This document shows, one piece after another, positions 4,934 to 17,541 of a stretch of DNA of 56,297 nt. Numbering within the stretch: the stretch's first letter is position 1; the number at the start of each line of letters is the position of its first letter. The translations under genes and the position numbers were made by a program. The DNA is from an uncultured Microcaldota archaeon (GTDB lineage Archaea > Micrarchaeota > Micrarchaeia > Norongarragalinales > CAINOH01). The notes beneath the pieces were generated by a model that was given only the letters and a program-made list of their open reading frames with translations, was not told where the DNA came from and searched no databases. Location of the stretch: contig CAINOH010000015.1 in the NCBI GenBank assembly GCA_903851445.1, positions 1 to 56,297 on the forward strand. Direction: 5' to 3'.

Positions 4934-6730
4934 ATGGATATTGTCGGGAGCGTGCTTGGGTTCCTTTCCAAAGCCCTAAGCTTCATCATCGCGGTTGCCC
5001 GCGGGATGCTCCTGCTTTCCCTTGGCATGCTCCTTGCATTGTCGGTCTTCCTTGCGATAATGGCCAACAGTGCGCGCTTCACGCTCCTGGACTCCAACTT
5101 TTACCTTAACCAGCTTGACGCGTCCAATGCCTACGACTCGATAAAGACAGTTGCCCTTGACCTTGTGGTAACCACGCTTACCGGCCAGTTCCCTGACTCG
5201 CCGGAAAAGGCAAAAGTCGTTTCCGAGTTTAGAACCGGGCTTGCGAACGCAATCCCAACTGACTGGTTCCGCAACAACACGCGGAAAATACTAACAAACA
5301 CGTTCGCCTACGCAAAGGGCGAGACCTACCAGCTCGACCTGAAAATCTCGATTGCCGAAATAAAGCCCGGGCTCAAGGCGGTCTTCAAGGACATTTTGCC
5401 CAAGCTTGCCAACCTGACGCAAGCAAGCAGCGCCGCAGGTCCGGCAGGGCAAACTAATGCCGGGCAATCACAAGGTTCGGGCATGCCTGCAATCATGTGG
5501 CCAGGCAACTGCAATTCCGTTGTAAGCTGCATGGATTACTGCGAAGGCCACGCCGATGAATGCAGCAAGTTTGACAACACGCCCTATGACCTGCGGATTA
5601 ACTGGACTTTCCTCAAGTCAAAATGCAAAGACATCGACGGGTGCGTCACGTACTGCCGCAACCTGGTGGGCACCAACCTCAACCCCGATGCCGGCGGAGT
5701 GGAAGGCAACTGCTCGCGGATGCTGCAGTTCATTGACGCGACCGCGCCCGGGCAACCCATACCGGAGTCGGTGCTGAAAACGCAGCCAAAGGCAACGCCA
5801 AGCCCTACGGCTTCGCCAAGTCCAAGGGCGGTGCCGCAATACAACTTCACCGGCCCCGGCGGGTGCAAAAGCAAGACAGGGTGCACCCAATATTGCTCCA
5901 CCCACAAAAACGAGTGCGCGGACACCAACTACACGATATACGTGGCCGTGAACACGACCGTTCTCGGCTCGCTTTGCTCGGACCCGCAATCCTGCCTGGA
6001 ATACTGCAAAGGCGACATTTCAAACGAAACAGGGGAAGTGAAAGACGAGTGCGGCAGCGTTAACAACGATTACGCGGCAGCACAAGAGGACCTGTTCAGC
6101 GCAATAGCCGGCCAGCAATCAGCGGAAATTTCCAGCGAGACTATGGATCAGCTAATCAACCAGCAACTGGACTCGCTTCCGGATGTAGTTGACTTGGATA
6201 AGGAGATGCAATACCAGCTTTCAGCAGGGCTTGCACAGGGCCGCCAGGCGCTTGGCACGGCAACCCTTGCCTGCGACCTTCTGGTAGTGGCCGCTGTTGT
6301 GCTCGCGCTCTTGATATCCCTTGTCGCATTCAGCGTGCGCGGCGCAATGAGGCACGTGGGCTGGCCGCTATTCATTGCCGGACTTGCCGCAACAATCCTT
6401 GCGCTGCTCGGGCCGAAGATGATCCTTGACACAGTAGCGCAGGGAATGGCCGGAGGGGGGCAGTTCGCGCAAGCAATGGGTGTACTGATGGACGTTGCAG
6501 CAGGCATAGTCAAAGGATACTTCAACACCGTGCTCATACCCGCGGCCATCACCTGCATTCTTGGCCTGGGACTGGTAATCTACTCATTCAAGATGAAGGA
6601 CAAGGAACAGGAAAAGGCCGGAAAAGAAGACCCGAAGAAAGAGCCGGAAGAAAAAGAAGAAGCGTCTGAAGAGGAAGATGCGCCTGAGAAAAAAACGGAG
6701 AAGAAAGCAAAGAACAAAAGTAAAAAATAA
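4934..6730 (+). CDS. Membrane-anchored protein with four C-x5-C-x2-Y-C repeats
   Basis: A 598-residue protein starting 9 bases after the phosphorylase stop, so probably co-transcribed. Residues about 12-45 form a hydrophobic N-terminal anchor. The middle section (residues about 185-375) carries four units of the form C-x5-C-x2-Y-C, each closed by a further cysteine 6-23 residues later. A proline/serine/threonine linker near residues 285-300 separates units two and three. Three more hydrophobic helices follow (about 440-467, 475-500 and 533-555), then a cytoplasmic tail dense in lysine and glutamate. The cysteines suggest disulfide-braced modules outside the membrane. Similar short cysteine units occur in poorly characterised proteins of small-genome archaea and candidate-phyla bacteria, to my memory. 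Function unknown. Confidence 0.75.
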   Translation: MDIVGSVLGFLSKALSFIIAVARGMLLLSLGMLLALSVFLAIMANSARFTLLDSNFYLNQLDASNAYDSIKTVALDLVVTTLTGQFPDSPEKAKVVSEFRTGLANAIPTDWFRNNTRKILTNTFAYAKGETYQLDLKISIAEIKPGLKAVFKDILPKLANLTQASSAAGPAGQTNAGQSQGSGMPAIMWPGNCNSVVSCMDYCEGHADECSKFDNTPYDLRINWTFLKSKCKDIDGCVTYCRNLVGTNLNPDAGGVEGNCSRMLQFIDATAPGQPIPESVLKTQPKATPSPTASPSPRAVPQYNFTGPGGCKSKTGCTQYCSTHKNECADTNYTIYVAVNTTVLGSLCSDPQSCLEYCKGDISNETGEVKDECGSVNNDYAAAQEDLFSAIAGQQSAEISSETMDQLINQQLDSLPDVVDLDKEMQYQLSAGLAQGRQALGTATLACDLLVVAAVVLALLISLVAFSVRGAMRHVGWPLFIAGLAATILALLGPKMILDTVAQGMAGGGQFAQAMGVLMDVAAGIVKGYFNTVLIPAAITCILGLGLVIYSFKMKDKEQEKAGKEDPKKEPEEKEEASEEEDAPEKKTEKKAKNKSKK

Positions 6731-8153: not shown

Positions 8154-8834
8154 ATGAAAAATGTAGACGTATTTGCACCTAAATCATGCCGAATCATCTC
8201 ATACTACCTCCTGCACGCAAAGGAGCCCGTAAGTCAAAAGCAAATCGTTGAAGCCACCGGCGTTGCGGCAGGTTTGGTGAGCCGCGTCAGCTCCGAACTA
8301 GTAGCTAGGGGCATCGTCAAGCGCTTGTACCGAACCCGATTTTCACTTGAATACCCACAAAAACTTATGTTGGACTGGATCGGTAACAGGCAAATGGCAC
8401 AAAAGAGGGCGTTCTTTGCCAAGGACGTCTCAATCCTAAAGGGAGTCAAACACACCCATACGCTATTTTCCGGTGCGTTTCTTCAAACAGAGTATCTGAA
8501 GACGCGTTTTACGACAGTATATGTTTCGCACAACTACCGCCCCGATGAAAAAGTCCGTGAGGGCCGGGTCGGCGATTTCCTTGAAAACATCGTCTTAATT
8601 CCTGCTGATGACGAATTCGTCTTTTATGAGAGAAGGAAAATTAAGGGACTGTGGGTAGTAAATCCCGCGCTGCTATTCGTAGATTTGTCGAGTCTTGGAG
8701 GCATGGCCTTGCAGCAGGCTTCGGAAGTCGCCCAGCAGCAGGATTGGCAAGATTTGATGAAGATTGTTACTATTAACGGAGCGACTCGTTCTATTACAAT
8801 GCAGGAAAACATTGCAAATCAGATGAAAAAGTGA
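8154..8834 (+). CDS. Winged-helix regulator of AbiEi type (probable antitoxin)
   Basis: A 226-residue protein. Residues about 10-65 form a winged helix-turn-helix (KQIVEATGVAAGLVSRVSSEL followed by a wing). The C-terminal part, with VNPALLFVDLSSLGG near residues 170-185, resembles the AbiEi antitoxin domain, which in bacteria represses its own operon and neutralises a nucleotidyltransferase toxin. Its stop codon overlaps the start of a nucleotidyltransferase gene (GTGA), and the repeat-rich promoter ahead of it fits autoregulation. Family membership is inferred from architecture and local motifs, not a search. It could alternatively be a plain wHTH regulator of the partner gene. Confidence 0.65.
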   Translation: MKNVDVFAPKSCRIISYYLLHAKEPVSQKQIVEATGVAAGLVSRVSSELVARGIVKRLYRTRFSLEYPQKLMLDWIGNRQMAQKRAFFAKDVSILKGVKHTHTLFSGAFLQTEYLKTRFTTVYVSHNYRPDEKVREGRVGDFLENIVLIPADDEFVFYERRKIKGLWVVNPALLFVDLSSLGGMALQQASEVAQQQDWQDLMKIVTINGATRSITMQENIANQMKK

Positions 8835-9505
8835 AACGAATGGCTGAGTTTTATTCCACAGATATATGCGAGAAATCCTTTTCCGAACTAGTGGAATTCG
8901 CAAGAAAGGCCAACGAACTGGGCGAGCTGCCACTCCTATTCGGGGGTTGGGCAGTATACCATTACAACCAATACGCTGGAAGCAAGGACGTCGATTGCAT
9001 CGTGTCCGAAACCCGCTTCGATGGATTGGTAGATTTTCTAGTTGGTAAAGGGTACGGCCAACGGGAGCTGCGCCTTTTCAAGGACAAGATTTTTTTCGAC
9101 TTGTACAAGAAGGACGAATCAATAGGTGAAGGAGAAACACGCGTTGACTTGTCAGACCTATACTCGGGAAGCTCTGAGGCGTATCTGAAGGGATATGGAA
9201 AAAGAACAGCGGGCGTTCAGGTACTGATTCCCAGCGTCCCTGCGCTATTACGTTCAAAAATATGCGCGCTTGCCATACGTGACGTCCCAAAAGACAGGAG
9301 CGATGCCATCGCGCTCATACTTTGTTTAAATGCTGGCGATGCTCCGGCGTTAGCAAGAAGCCTGCCTGCGGCGTTGAAAGCGCGGGTAGTCTCCTTGAGA
9401 GGCGATGCACAGACGCTTGGACTCGTTGGCAAGCCAACAAAGACAAAGCTGAAGGAACTTAACGACAAGATCCGAATATTGTCAGCTAGCGACCGACGAG
9501 CTTAA
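8831..9505 (+). CDS. Nucleotidyltransferase-fold protein of AbiEii/MNT type (probable toxin)
   Basis: A 224-residue protein whose N-terminal region has the nucleotidyltransferase signature GGWAVYHYNQYAGSKDVDC (residues about 35-53): a GG followed by a D-x-D metal-binding pair. A third acidic residue may be the D in RVDLSDLY. The C-terminal half is helical, as in AbiEii and related minimal nucleotidyltransferases. The GTG at 8831 overlaps the upstream stop by four bases; ATG 8840 is in frame and also possible. Gene order (regulator first, transferase second, overlapping) matches type IV AbiE modules. These modify tRNA or other targets and act in phage defence or plasmid maintenance; a defence role here is inference. 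Confidence 0.65.
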   Translation: MKRMAEFYSTDICEKSFSELVEFARKANELGELPLLFGGWAVYHYNQYAGSKDVDCIVSETRFDGLVDFLVGKGYGQRELRLFKDKIFFDLYKKDESIGEGETRVDLSDLYSGSSEAYLKGYGKRTAGVQVLIPSVPALLRSKICALAIRDVPKDRSDAIALILCLNAGDAPALARSLPAALKARVVSLRGDAQTLGLVGKPTKTKLKELNDKIRILSASDRRA

Positions 9506-9604: not shown

Positions 9605-9679
9605 TGCTCCAAACGGGATTTGAACCCGTGTTAGCGGATTGAGAATCCGCTGTCCTTGACCGAGCTAGACTATTGGAGC
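9605..9679 (-). tRNA. tRNA-Glu (anticodon CTC)
   Basis: Read on the minus strand, GCTCCAA pairs with TTGGAGC as the acceptor stem. The anticodon stem GCGGA/TCCGC closes a TTCTCAA loop with anticodon CTC. The T arm is ACGGG-TTCAAAT-CCCGT. The D arm is GTCT...GGAC with the GG pair in its loop. The discriminator base is A, and CCA is not encoded next to it. No intron is apparent. Confidence 0.93.
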
Positions 9680-12720: not shown

Positions 12721-15700
12721 TTGGCGCAGGCACCGCAGTCCGCACTTCCCATAGAGGAGGGCGCAGCCACGCGCCTGTTCGGCGAGTTCTTCAACGAGTA
12801 CTGCAACCGCGAGGTTATGGAGCTCGCCCAAGCATACCCGGACAAGCGCAGCCTCAACATCGACTTTTCGCTGCTTTCAAAGTTCAACTCCGAGCTTGCG
12901 GACGCGCTCGTTGACCGGCCGGACGTCTACCTGAAGGCAGCTGAGGCTGCAGCAAGGCAGCTCGAGGTTGTGACAACTGGCGAGCGCGAGTTTACCCCGC
13001 ACGTCCGGATCATCGGAGTCCCCGAGGAAATCTCGGTCACTGTACAGAACCTTGGCGCGGAGTACCTGAACAAGGTCATGCGGGTTGACGGCATAGTCAC
13101 GCTGATTACCCAAATCATGCCCAAGCTGCAGACTGCAAGGTGGGTCTGCATCCACTGCACGCGCTCAATAGACACTGCTGTCGGGAAGACCGGCGTTGAA
13201 AAGCCGTCGGTGTGCCCCGGCTGCGGCAGGGGCGACGGACTTTACCTTTCCGAGCAGGCGAGCGGCTTTGTGAACATGCAGCGCTCGCAAATCCAGGACC
13301 CTGTTGAGAAAATCCGGGGCAACATCCCTGCGCCGCAGGTTGACCTGTGGCTCGAGGACGACTTCGTCAACATGATCTCGCCAGGGGACAACGTCATAAT
13401 CACTGGGATACTGCGGCTGCGCCAGAACCAGCAGTCGCGGGGCGGGAAGGCCACGCCAGTGTACTCGAAGTTCTTCGACGTGGTCGGAATCGAGAAGATG
13501 CAGAAGGAGTTCGAGGAACTTTCCGTAACCAAGGAAGAGGAAGACCAGATTCTCGAAATCTCGCACGACCCGCACCTCATTGACAAGGTCATCATGAGCA
13601 TCGCGCCAAGCATCTACGGCTATTCCGAGATGAAGGAGGCCATTGCAGTCCAGCTTTTCGGAGGGACGCAGAACAAGGTCCTCCCAGATGGAAAAAAGAT
13701 ACGAGGAGACATACACGTTTTGTTGGTTGGAGACCCGGGTTGCCTTGCTGCTGGCGAGAGAGTCATACTGGCAAACGGGGTGATTGTCCCGATTGAGGGC
13801 CTCGGGGAAAAGCACTTGCAGAAAATCAACATCCCGGTTCAAACTGGGCAAGGCAGGACCCGCGACATTGCGACAGTATTCCACAAGTACGAGCAGCAGC
13901 CAGTCATCGAGATCGTCACCGAGAGCGGCAAGAGAATCCGCGGTACGCACAACCACCCGCTGTTGTGGGTCAGGGCAGAAGACGGTGCTCGCGCCAGCTC
14001 GTGGAAACGGCTTGACGAGTTCAAAGTGGGCGACAAAGTGGCGGTGACAAGCGGCATCCCATGCACCATCACGGGATTCGTACCAACAGGCTTTGCCCCG
14101 CAAAAACGCAATAGGGACCCCCGGTTCCGCGGAAAACTGCCTTCGAAAGTCACGCCCGAGCTCGCGGCATTCATGGGTTACGTCCTTGGCGATGGCTGGG
14201 CGCAAAAATACCGCGTAGGCTTCGTGGTCGCACAACCGGAAATTGACGTGCTGGAGAAGCTTTGCGGCTTCTCAGAATCGCTTTTCGGAATCCGGCCAAA
14301 GATAACCAAGAGGATACTTGCCGGACGCACAGTCCAGCTGCACTACGCCACCATAGGCTCGGAGGATGTCGCGCACAACCTCTCGTTCCTTGCAAAAAAG
14401 CGCGTGCCCTCGCTGATAATGCGCTCTGGAAACGTGGTAGCAAGCGAATTCATCAAATGGCTTTTTGAGGCGGATGGGACGGTCTTCTGCAAGGGCCGCG
14501 GCAGGAGGGCGGTTGCGCTCAAGGCCAAGGATGTCGAGCTATTGCGCGACGTCCAAGTCCTCTTGTTGCGCTTTGGAATCCACTCCCGAATCATTGAAAA
14601 CGCGTTGTGCATCCGGCGCGGGGCGGACATCATACGATTCGAAAAAAAGATCGGCTTTGCGTCCCAAAAAAAGGTTTCCAAGCTCAGGGAGCTTGCAAGG
14701 CAGGCAAAAATATTCAAGCGGTTCAACTCCCAGCGGAGCGAGAAAATAGTCAAAATCCGCCTCTTGGAGCCGCAAACAGTATACGATATTGAAGTCCCGA
14801 AAAGCAACCGTTTCGTCGCAAACGGGATTGTATCGCACAACACCGCCAAATCAACTATCCTCCAGTACGTCAAGGAGCTCGCGCCCAAGGGAATCTACGT
14901 CTCGGGCAAGGGTGCAAGCGGAGTCGGACTCACCGCGTCAGCTGAAAAGGACGAGCTTGCGGATGGCGGCTGGGTGCTCAAGGCGGGCGCGCTCGTTCTC
15001 GCATCTGGCGGGGTCGTGATGGTGGACGAGTTCGACAAGATGGACCCGAACGACCGCGCGAGCATGCATGAGGCAATGGAACAGCAGTCGTATCACTCAA
15101 AGACACGAGTCTTGCTTTCAGACGGGAGCGAAAAGGAAATTGGCCCGCTTGTCGACAGGTTGATATGTGACCGCAAGGAGCGGGTGATTATCGGAAAGGA
15201 CTGCGAAATACTCCCGCTAAAACCAGGCGATCTCGAACTGTTCACTTCCGACTTCTGCAATGTGTTCAAGACGAACGTGAACAGGATAAGCAGGCACAAG
15301 GCGCCGGACAGGTTCGTGAAGATAACCCTGCAAAACGGCAGGAGCGTTTGCGTGACTCCAGAACACCCGTGCTGGGTGATAAAGGACGGCAGGATTACGA
15401 CAAAGCCAGCTGAAAGCATCTCCAGCGAAGACTTCCTTCCAATACCAACCACGATTCCCATCCTCGGGGAGCCGCAAACCATTGAGCAGAAAACACCCTC
15501 TATCGAGCCTAAAGCTCCAGAGCGGAAAGAGGAACTCATCCAAGTAAACCGTTTTCCGAGCCACAATGACGCGGACTTCTGCAAGCTCATAGGCTACCTG
15601 ATTACCGATGGCGGGTATGAACTGAACCGCGGCAAGAAGGTTGGCGTGAACTTCACAAACAAGGACGCGAAGCTAATCGCGGATTTCTGCAGCCTGACCC

Positions 15701-17541
15701 AAAAATACTTTGGGATTGACCCATATGTGCACACGCGGCCAGACGGGGTTGCCATGGCCAGGATAACAAACAAGGCCCTCTTTGGCTACCTTTGCAGGTT
15801 GGACGCCTGCTTTGCGGAGAAAAGCGACCACAAACGCATACCACCCTTCCTAATGAAGTCGACAACAACCGACCTGCGGCCGATGCTTTCCGCGATGTTC
15901 GAGTGCGACGGCTGGGCCACCAAGAACAGGGTCGGCTTCGTCTCGCCAAACAAGGAGTGCTGCGAACAAGTCCAAACCCTGCTGCTGCGGTTTGGCATAC
16001 TCTCTAGCCTGCTTGAGCAGAAGACCGAAAGCGGAAAGAAAATATGGCGGGTTATGATTACCGGCGCGGAGAACCTGCGCCTGTTCTACGAGCGCGTGTC
16101 ATTCCTTTCGGAAAGAAAAAACAGCCGACTCGCAGGCCAGCTTAACCCAAAAAACTACCGCACAATCAAGGACATAGTGCCTAACGTGGGCGCGTCGGTT
16201 TCAATGCTCTCGGCCACCCTGAAGGTGGATGAATCGAGAGTCCTCGGATACTCCATAACAGGCTACAAGGCAGGGAAGAATAACCTCTCCAAACCAGCCT
16301 TAAGGACGTTCACCGAGGCGCTTGAGCAGAAGCTGGTTGCATTTGAAAGGGCGCGCAAGGAACTTACCAGTTTGGCGTCTGCAGAGGAGCTTAAGGCCGT
16401 CCGCACCAGCCTGAACATCTCGCTTGAAGACCTTGAGCAATACTCTGACGCAAGCCACCAGACGCTTTCGTTGATCGAACGCGGCAAAGGGGACCCCAAA
16501 CGGCTCCGGGATGCACTTGAAAAGTTCTGCGCTGACGTCCAGCGAGTTTCTGGGGAAGTCACTTTCCTCAAACGTCTCGCTTTCGGCCAGGTTGCCTGGA
16601 GCAAGGTAAAAAAAGCCGAGTCAGCGCCCAATGATACTGAGGAATGGGTTTACGACGTCACGGTCGAGCCGACACGGAGCTTCATCTCCGAATGCATGCT
16701 TTTGCACAACACCATAAGCGTTGCCAAGGCAGGCATTGTCACCACATTCAAGGCGAAGACTTCGATACTTGCAGCTGCAAACCCCAAGCTTGGAAGGTTC
16801 GACCCGAACATTCCTCCGGCGCAGCAGTTCGACATCCCGCCCACGCTGATGAGCAGGTTCGACCTGATTTTCGCAATCAAGGACGTGCTTGACGAGGCCA
16901 AGGACCGCAAGCTGGTCGACCACGTGCTTACAGGGCACATGTTTGCGGCAAGGAAGCAGAAGCTCTCCGACCTCAAGGACTCGCCGATTATCCCGCCGAT
17001 AATGCCGGAGCTTTTGCGAAAATACATTTCCTACGCGCGAAAGAACATCTACCCGGTTCTTTCCGAGGAGGCTGCGAACAGGATAAAGGAATACTACCTT
17101 TCCCTGCGCAGGATGGGCGCGCAGCAGAACACCTACCCGGTCACCGCAAGGGAAATCGAGGGGCTCATCCGCATGAGCGAGGCGAGCGCCAAGCTCCGGC
17201 TCTCGAACGCTGTTGAACTCCGCGACGCCGAGCGCGCAATCGCACTCGTGCACTTCGTGCTGTCCGACATCTTCATGGACAAGGAGACCGGCAAGATGGA
17301 CTCGGACATAATCAACACGGGCCAGCCCAAGAGCAAGGTGGACAAGATGCGCTCGGTGCTCGGCATCATCAACGCCCTTGAGCAAAAGATGGACGTGGTT
17401 GACATTGACGAGATAGTCAACCAGGCGCAGACGATTGGGATGGATGAGACTTCGGCCCGCAGGCTCATTGACGAGCTAAAGCGCAACGGCGACCTGTACG
17501 AGCCCAAGGTCGGGTTCGTAAAGAGCTCGCGCGGAAGGTAG
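12721..17541 (+). CDS. mcm: Replicative helicase MCM interrupted by two inteins
   Basis: The frame encodes 1606 residues. Removing inteins at residues 341-707 and 790-1330 leaves a 698-residue MCM, the normal length. The extein has an N-terminal domain with a four-cysteine zinc site (C-x2-C ... C-x2-C, residues about 142-165), Walker A GDPG|TAKS, Walker B MVDEFDKM, a sensor-1 AAANP, the arginine finger in MSRFDL, and a C-terminal winged helix. It unwinds DNA ahead of the replication fork. The start is a TTG with a GGGGG/GAAGG region upstream; no in-frame ATG precedes the conserved N-terminal domain. Activity depends on both inteins splicing, because the first splits the ATP-binding loop. Confidence 0.95.
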   Translation: MAQAPQSALPIEEGAATRLFGEFFNEYCNREVMELAQAYPDKRSLNIDFSLLSKFNSELADALVDRPDVYLKAAEAAARQLEVVTTGEREFTPHVRIIGVPEEISVTVQNLGAEYLNKVMRVDGIVTLITQIMPKLQTARWVCIHCTRSIDTAVGKTGVEKPSVCPGCGRGDGLYLSEQASGFVNMQRSQIQDPVEKIRGNIPAPQVDLWLEDDFVNMISPGDNVIITGILRLRQNQQSRGGKATPVYSKFFDVVGIEKMQKEFEELSVTKEEEDQILEISHDPHLIDKVIMSIAPSIYGYSEMKEAIAVQLFGGTQNKVLPDGKKIRGDIHVLLVGDPGCLAAGERVILANGVIVPIEGLGEKHLQKINIPVQTGQGRTRDIATVFHKYEQQPVIEIVTESGKRIRGTHNHPLLWVRAEDGARASSWKRLDEFKVGDKVAVTSGIPCTITGFVPTGFAPQKRNRDPRFRGKLPSKVTPELAAFMGYVLGDGWAQKYRVGFVVAQPEIDVLEKLCGFSESLFGIRPKITKRILAGRTVQLHYATIGSEDVAHNLSFLAKKRVPSLIMRSGNVVASEFIKWLFEADGTVFCKGRGRRAVALKAKDVELLRDVQVLLLRFGIHSRIIENALCIRRGADIIRFEKKIGFASQKKVSKLRELARQAKIFKRFNSQRSEKIVKIRLLEPQTVYDIEVPKSNRFVANGIVSHNTAKSTILQYVKELAPKGIYVSGKGASGVGLTASAEKDELADGGWVLKAGALVLASGGVVMVDEFDKMDPNDRASMHEAMEQQSYHSKTRVLLSDGSEKEIGPLVDRLICDRKERVIIGKDCEILPLKPGDLELFTSDFCNVFKTNVNRISRHKAPDRFVKITLQNGRSVCVTPEHPCWVIKDGRITTKPAESISSEDFLPIPTTIPILGEPQTIEQKTPSIEPKAPERKEELIQVNRFPSHNDADFCKLIGYLITDGGYELNRGKKVGVNFTNKDAKLIADFCSLTQKYFGIDPYVHTRPDGVAMARITNKALFGYLCRLDACFAEKSDHKRIPPFLMKSTTTDLRPMLSAMFECDGWATKNRVGFVSPNKECCEQVQTLLLRFGILSSLLEQKTESGKKIWRVMITGAENLRLFYERVSFLSERKNSRLAGQLNPKNYRTIKDIVPNVGASVSMLSATLKVDESRVLGYSITGYKAGKNNLSKPALRTFTEALEQKLVAFERARKELTSLASAEELKAVRTSLNISLEDLEQYSDASHQTLSLIERGKGDPKRLRDALEKFCADVQRVSGEVTFLKRLAFGQVAWSKVKKAESAPNDTEEWVYDVTVEPTRSFISECMLLHNTISVAKAGIVTTFKAKTSILAAANPKLGRFDPNIPPAQQFDIPPTLMSRFDLIFAIKDVLDEAKDRKLVDHVLTGHMFAARKQKLSDLKDSPIIPPIMPELLRKYISYARKNIYPVLSEEAANRIKEYYLSLRRMGAQQNTYPVTAREIEGLIRMSEASAKLRLSNAVELRDAERAIALVHFVLSDIFMDKETGKMDSDIINTGQPKSKVDKMRSVLGIINALEQKMDVVDIDEIVNQAQTIGMDETSARRLIDELKRNGDLYEPKVGFVKSSRGR
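13741..14841 (+). other. Intein 1 in the MCM Walker A loop (367 aa, LAGLIDADG endonuclease)
   Basis: The insert starts with cysteine (CLAAGERVILANG, block A), has the splicing histidine in GTHNHPLLW (block B), and ends in IVSHN directly before threonine of the extein (GDPG|TAKS). Two LAGLIDADG-like endonuclease motifs are present with their acidic residues, in FMGYVLGDGWA and FIKWLFEADGTV. The element therefore looks capable of both splicing and homing. The insertion point in the P-loop is a classic intein site in MCM and other ATPases. Confidence 0.93.
15088..16710 (+). other. Intein 2 in MCM (541 aa, LAGLIDADG endonuclease plus XRE-like HTH)
   Basis: The insert starts with serine (SYHSKTRVLLSDG) and ends in MLLHN before threonine of the extein (EQQ|TISVAKAG). 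VTPEHPCW is the block B motif. KLIGYLITDGGY and LSAMFECDGWAT are the two endonuclease motifs, again with acidic residues kept. It is about 170 residues longer than intein 1. The extra part includes an XRE/Cro-like helix-turn-helix at about 16381-16533 (LKAVRTSLNISLEDLEQYS, then SLIERGKGDP), preceded by a DIVPNVG segment. This domain probably helps the endonuclease recognise its DNA target. Confidence 0.92.

Follow-up and report, generated by a model that had tools for sequence, protein, structure and literature searches.

A life on other cells is assumed for bacteria of the candidate phyla radiation (CPR) and for small-genome archaea, and few of their contact proteins are known. An MdbA-like thiol-disulfide oxidoreductase has been reported to be enriched in CPR, often with VKOR adjacent, and pilins were suggested as its substrates (PMC6744442). 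For Peribacteria, which belong to the CPR, exported and very cysteine-rich large extracellular proteins are described and proposed for attachment (PMC4736985). The present analysis concerns a cysteine-rich unit that occurs four times in a membrane protein of an uncultured Microcaldota archaeon. The protein is encoded at positions 4934-6730 of a contig of 56,297 nucleotides (CAINOH010000015.1, assembly GCA_903851445.1, forward strand), which was analysed as a whole and is called the window below. The four units are probably an exported, disulfide-stapled helical-hairpin repeat, inserted and duplicated in the extracytoplasmic loop of a protein with four membrane segments. Comparison at the sequence level establishes the relation of the units to repeats of CPR bacteria, their common insertion site and the all-or-none occurrence of the cysteine quartet.

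The cysteine units of the window protein

Translation of 4934-6727 (+) contains C-x5-C-x2-Y-C four times, starting at residues 193 (nucleotide 5510), 231 (5624), 311 (5864) and 348 (5975). These are the units of constant inner spacing to which an earlier note on this DNA had pointed, and they withstand a shuffle test: among 20,000 shuffles of residues 181-385, 64 held one match and none two or more. The core C-x5-C-x2-[YF]-C is present in all four units. The distance to the fourth cysteine varies, as had been claimed, with gaps from Cys3 to Cys4 of x6, x18, x6 and x14 in units 1 to 4; the canonical x6 spacing, as seen elsewhere, is found in units 1 and 3 only. A profile of the CPR units (see below) searched against the six frames of the whole window matched the host open reading frame (ORF) alone, with an E-value of 4.3e-15, and in the organism's own genome a profile search confined the unit to this ORF. 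The best full score in 2,000 shuffles of the unit region was 10.2 bits.

The loop is made of two copies of a two-unit block around a Pro/Ser/Thr linker, rather than of four equal repeats. Local alignment of residues 185-268 (units 1-2) with residues 303-385 (units 3-4) scored 124. None of 2,000 shuffles with the cysteines held in place reached this score (mean 40.8, standard deviation 9.9, maximum 87), which argues for an internal duplication, a feature absent from the earlier note. The linker lies where the earlier note had seen it, between units 2 and 3 at about residues 269-304. Eight N-x-S/T sequons were counted in the loop (shuffle mean 3.9; 59 of 2,000 shuffles had as many).

Hydropathy of the host protein shows a long hydrophobic N-terminus (residues 3-43) and segments at about 450-468, 475-493 and 525-543. 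Since most homologues have a single N-terminal segment, the best reading of the sequence is one plus three, that is four, membrane segments. The loop between segments 2 and 3 is basic (RGAMRHVG) and the C-terminal tail is rich in Lys and Glu. According to the positive-inside rule basic loops are on the cytoplasmic side, so that the cysteine loop would be outside. An outer position of the units is the best reading of hydropathy and charges, and supports the earlier placement of the module on the outer side of a four-segment protein with a charged inner tail. The features of the locus are as follows.

4934..6730 (+): host membrane protein ORF, 598 aa, stop codon included (translation, homologues)
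5006..5062 (+): predicted N-terminal membrane segment, about residues 25-43 (hydropathy)
5066..5404 (+): conserved, probably extracytoplasmic part, about residues 45-157; L52, Y57, Y67, W111, Y126 and L136 invariant in 7 sequences
5510..5563 (+): unit 1, Cys 193/199/203/210, C-x5-C-x2-YC-x6-C, lead-in WPGN; 26.3 bits to the CPR-unit profile
5624..5713 (+): unit 2, divergent, Cys 231/237/241/260, last gap x18; 7.1 bits over 13 profile positions only
5738..5845 (+): Pro/Ser/Thr-rich linker between the two-unit blocks, about residues 269-304 (translation)
5864..5917 (+): unit 3, Cys 311/317/321/328, C-x5-C-x2-YC-x6-C, lead-in GPGG; 27.5 bits to the CPR-unit profile
5975..6052 (+): unit 4, divergent, Cys 348/354/358/373, last gap x14; 5.7 bits, helices predicted around Cys2/3 and Cys4
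6179..6184 (+): P416-D417, invariant in 7 of 7 sequences, in the (I/L/V)PD motif that follows the insert
6281..6337 (+): predicted membrane segment 2, residues 450-468 (hydropathy)
6356..6412 (+): predicted membrane segment 3, residues 475-493 (hydropathy)
6506..6562 (+): predicted membrane segment 4, residues 525-543 (hydropathy)
6569..6727 (+): Lys/Glu-rich tail, probably cytoplasmic (translation, charges)

Occurrence of the unit and its host family

Absence of the pattern elsewhere would have counted against the reading of the earlier note; the pattern proved to be abundant, mainly in CPR bacteria and also in some small-genome archaea. A search of named genomes with the DNA pattern GPGGC.....C..YC gave at least 119 stretches, nearly all from CPR bacteria; four Aenigmatarchaeota and one Methanoregula are among the rest. 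These 119 stretches were studied as loci L013-L131. Rescored with the unit profile, 112 of 119 pattern ORFs reached at least 25 bits and two Kerfeldbacteria ORFs 23-24 bits. Five ORFs below 17 bits (two Prevotella-type, one each from Verrucomicrobium, Streptomyces and Kitasatospora) were set aside as chance-like, and at L035 we found no ORF carrying the pattern. The profile was trained on the units of L013-L092, where scores are not independent; L093-L131 are outside the training set. A profile of 48 units including those of the window (A3) matched 72 of 237 genomes of the CPR class to which L064 belongs, 5 of 145 in a CPR phylum sample and, in the phylum of the window, 9 of 245. The identical query that matches in CPR and in the window's phylum gave no match in 148 Bacteroidota genomes. 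Judged by these sequence matches, the unit has a wide distribution in CPR bacteria and a patchy one in small-genome archaea.

Three single cases may be added. The Aenigmatarchaeota record L107 holds a 470-aa ORF with a tandem array of CPR type and a YPV-EL start; a misbinned contig or gene transfer between the two domains may account for it. Outside CPR and DPANN, a single x6-type unit (26.9 bits) occurs in a Methanoregula protein (L048:1994-3271, +) that by eye looks like a lipoprotein. In L143, from a relative (G130), two neighbouring, exported-looking ORFs share a cysteine-rich lead (CSSLQDCFVFC / CTGEGECKNFC), possibly distant variants of the unit; their bodies resemble what we take to be the peptidase M23 type.

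Among the 320 CPR-side units (L013-L092) the gap between Cys3 and Cys4 is x8 in 266 and x6 in 47 (together 313 of 320), and the lead-in is GPGG in 148. The commonest distance between units is 48-54 residues, and within the protein x8 units tend to precede those of the x6 type (mean relative position 0.34 vs 0.62). Several CPR carriers, L082, L085 and L073 among them, also have long low-complexity stretches rich in Pro, Gln and Tyr. A longer profile gave 598 matches, in 546 of which the quartet is complete. A further 42 are incomplete alignments, and eight are without Cys1 at its column, some of these having another Cys1 spacing or being truncated alignments. Cys1 and Cys2 are lost together in two of the 598, both from Kerfeldbacteria, and in L062, L074 and L086 one unit each retains only a pair, taken by eye as Cys3 and Cys4. 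The paired loss favours bonds Cys1-Cys2 and Cys3-Cys4, on few events.

Homologues of the host protein were found in 7 of 60 relatives, its own genome included. A profile search gave 17 of 240 genomes of the phylum, with 3 of the 17 matches partial or unrelated. We read 16 members: those of the 17 genomes minus G221, G158 and G116, plus G040 and G027 from the search of the 60 relatives. Common to them are the N-terminal segment, the outer domain and further membrane segments, and most have the PD motif. Complete quartets are present in the loop of five members, namely the window protein with four units and G047, G245, G082 and G161 with one x5-x3-x8 unit each, always between outer domain and PD motif. 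The insert stretch of the other 11 contains no cysteine at all. As far as these sequences go, the unit is not obligatory in the window's phylum: proteins of this unnamed family with four membrane segments have 0, 1 or 4 copies of it, inserted at a single site. In the host-family tree (293 columns) several deep nodes are poorly supported (39-74) and at least three changes were counted by hand. The tree is compatible with one gain of the unit plus losses or with several gains, and does not settle between them. In G023 and G027 (L157, L003) ORFs that by eye are like RAD55/KaiC-type ATPases adjoin the host gene.

Export, possible disulfide chemistry and competing explanations

Among carriers complete at the 5' end, 93 of 96 show a strongly hydrophobic stretch in front of the first unit; in a similar test of other ORFs (at least 300 aa) in the carrier loci, 80 of 271 did. 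The scan covered the first 100 residues in the controls, and in carriers the part before the first unit within about 110 positions. By this measure the CPR carriers look exported. VKOR is encoded in 39 of 72 CPR carriers vs 48 of 165 non-carriers of one class (odds ratio 2.9, Fisher p=4e-4), and leaving out two matches below the cut-off changes this little (38 of 72 vs 47 of 165, p=6e-4). The 119 loci (897,802 bases) include four VKOR ORFs, at distances of -4, 350, 1,242 and 2,444 nt from the repeat ORF. About 0.6 would be expected if, very roughly, every second genome of 0.8 Mb had a VKOR gene. In G408, G525 and G561 VKOR and unit are within about 1.3 kb of each other, with possible overlap with the 119 loci. 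Among the latter no DsbA-like neighbour of a CPR carrier was detected, with seeds taken from three loci. A DsbA-like protein encoded in the window's genome has a CPYC site and, at the N-terminus, a hydrophobic anchor. The DsbD_TM family was found in 7 of 16 genomes, G000 not among them.

For a CPR stretch of 225 residues with four units, aligned with 45 others, structure prediction gave a mean local confidence (predicted local distance difference test, pLDDT) of 91.6 and a predicted template modelling score (pTM) of 0.75. The model repeats a short helix with Cys2 and Cys3, a helix with Cys4 and a linker helix. Units 3-4 of the window, with 24 other rows, gave a pLDDT of 71.5 and a helix order as in the CPR model. 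Structure prediction of the repeats, which the earlier note had put forward, assigns Cys2 and Cys3 to a common short helix, followed by another that holds Cys4. The note's small disulfide-knotted module stands as a small module with a cysteine quartet; a knot finds no support in the model, which is a helix-turn-helix with room for two disulfides.

We propose that a cysteine-quartet repeat was inserted into the extracytoplasmic loop of the four-segment protein and duplicated in the window protein. Each unit would have its Cys2 and Cys3 on a short helix that turns tightly into a second one bearing Cys4, and the four cysteines would form two disulfides outside the cell, preferably Cys1-Cys2 and Cys3-Cys4, stapling the hairpin. 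Tandem units may build a stiff, protease-resistant rod or surface away from the membrane. Least supported is the step from this putative surface to a binding partner, be it another macromolecule or a neighbouring cell, and to a reach adjusted through copy number; a function in cell contact is plausible.

Several results weigh against this proposal. The association statistics for VKOR ignore kinship. VKOR was not found in the window's genome (81% complete), and of the nine unit-bearing genomes of the phylum only G187, with a weak unit match (E 3e-4), is listed with VKOR. DsbA-like proteins (PF13462) are present in 15 of 16 genomes tested, unit-bearing or not, and such near-universal presence does not discriminate between unit carriers and others. 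The window model is only moderate (pTM 0.48), with one other aligned row for unit 4, and a simple antiparallel-hairpin estimate could accommodate the pairing Cys1-Cys3/Cys2-Cys4 too. No conserved gene neighbour across the host family was seen when flanking ORFs were read by eye, without Pfam on the flanks. As to VKOR itself, the window's phylum has it in 126 of 240 genomes, its distribution there does not track the unit, and as an explanation in this phylum it is unsupported.

Among the alternatives, a passive spacer survives best: the insert could be a rigid, protease-resistant stalk that fills or stiffens the loop or shields the membrane protein. Its optional nature (11 of 16 family members are without it, and copy number is 0, 1 or 4), the Pro/Ser/Thr linker between the blocks and the sequons in the loop would suit such a role, but the PGG lead-in and the units are strongly conserved across distant lineages, beyond the apparent needs of a spacer. 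We regard it as a possibility to be reckoned with, if not a likely one. Four nearly invariant cysteines with an almost fixed inner spacing might instead bind a metal or a Fe-S cluster outside the cell, for storage, electron transfer or sensing, and form no disulfides, and VKOR is indeed mostly missing from the window's genome and the other listed carriers of its phylum. However, the gaps between Cys1 and Cys2 (x4, x5 or longer) and between Cys3 and Cys4 (x6, x8, x14, x18) are looser than expected for a metal site, and the export of the carriers, the association and co-location with VKOR in CPR and the DsbA-like protein of the window's genome speak for disulfides, which makes metal binding improbable. 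A chance cysteine pattern or a convergent local duplication unrelated to the CPR repeats is very improbable: units 2 and 4 are weak against the profile (7.1 and 5.7 bits), but units 1 and 3 reach 26-27 bits with PG/GPGG lead-ins, 0 of 20,000 shuffles had two or more matches, and four homologues have a single canonical x8 unit at the same site.

Being common in apparently exported proteins of tiny, probably partner-dependent bacteria, the repeat is a promising candidate for a building block of the cell surface that these lineages share. A wider idea is that the hairpin is a repeat dedicated to surface recognition in episymbiotic lifestyles. CPR bacteria and small-genome archaea would have come to share it by cross-domain transfer, the VKOR/DsbA pathway would oxidise it, and it would serve as an exchangeable ectodomain, the number of copies setting reach or partner range. 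This we put forward as a speculation that is rather unlikely to hold in full.

Neighbouring genes and comparison with known systems

The genome around the window comprises 1.09 Mb in 25 contigs and is 81% complete; its size and genes suggest a member of DPANN. The window holds an archaeal gene set with the PolD large subunit, topoisomerase VI A, Cdc6 and MCM. Upstream of the host ORF there is a carbohydrate-phosphorylase ORF, separated from its start by a gap of 9 nt, and downstream a DEAD helicase on the opposite strand. The MCM helicase gene (12721-17541, +) has two inteins, with two Intein_splicing stretches and LAGLIDADG domains. At 8154-9505 (+) a MarR-like winged-helix protein (a weak match below the cut-off) overlaps the start of an ORF that is nucleotidyltransferase-like by eye. 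The two are possibly a pair of toxin-antitoxin type, and tRNA-Glu is nearby at 9605-9679.

Pfam and NCBIfam scans of the window protein gave no family over the cut-off; with Pfam the best match among seven family members was DUF5693, with E 0.003 in one of them. In ten carriers from CPR, Aenigmatarchaeota and Methanoregula no Pfam or NCBIfam match was located on a unit among the matched stretches listed, and the only matches over the cut-off were Kazal, DUF333, TIG and CoaZ_rpt_PGGG (carriers L056, L069, L055). A Kazal-type domain was rejected: the window protein has no Pfam match to it, and in two archaeal carriers Kazal lies elsewhere. CHCH or twin CX9C proteins have two CX9C (or CX3C) motifs on antiparallel helices. 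This hairpin was rejected too, the window spacing being x5, x3 and x6-x18, with no Pfam match. For the Myxococcus cysteine-rich repeat, whose model is presumably TIGR02232, the NCBIfam scans gave no match, the presence of the model in the library being unconfirmed. A profile search of PDB sequences gave a best E-value of 4.7. The best Foldseek matches had E 5.0 for the CPR model (TPR protein 4i17 on top) and 7.6 for the window model, VIA-align found at best the TPR of KLC1 (Z 3.0 over 55 residues), and the best match in a viral structure library had E 2.8. Such poor matches of predicted structures do not prove a new fold. In open-access PMC we found no title or abstract opening describing the unit, and the four papers with the string GPGGC were unrelated by title.

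A repeat that has no Pfam or NCBIfam model in these scans and occurs in about one third of a sample of one CPR class, as well as in archaeal membrane proteins, is a concrete handle, and one short profile suffices to annotate it. TPR-like alpha-solenoids resemble it in the consecutive short helices of a repeat, as predicted here, with matches at E 5.0 and Z 3.0 only. TPR repeats are not known to carry cysteine staples. The Peribacteria proteins are alike in export and cysteine content, a likeness that follows their description in that report (PMC4736985) and not the unit pattern. With the MdbA-like and VKOR families (PMC6744442) the repeat would share compartment and chemistry; these are oxidising enzymes reported to be enriched in CPR, and the repeat is a further candidate substrate for them. 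The units resemble the GPGGC-type repeat of CPR bacteria in C-x5-C-x2-[YF]-C, the PGG lead-in and a predicted helix-turn-helix; the x6 gap to Cys4 agrees in units 1 and 3 and differs in units 2 and 4, and an outer location, judged from hydropathy and charges, would agree with the apparent export of the CPR proteins. The CPR proteins mostly carry tandem arrays of units 48-54 residues apart behind a signal-like N-terminus, whereas the window protein has two two-unit blocks with a spacing of 37-38 residues inside a protein with four predicted membrane segments.
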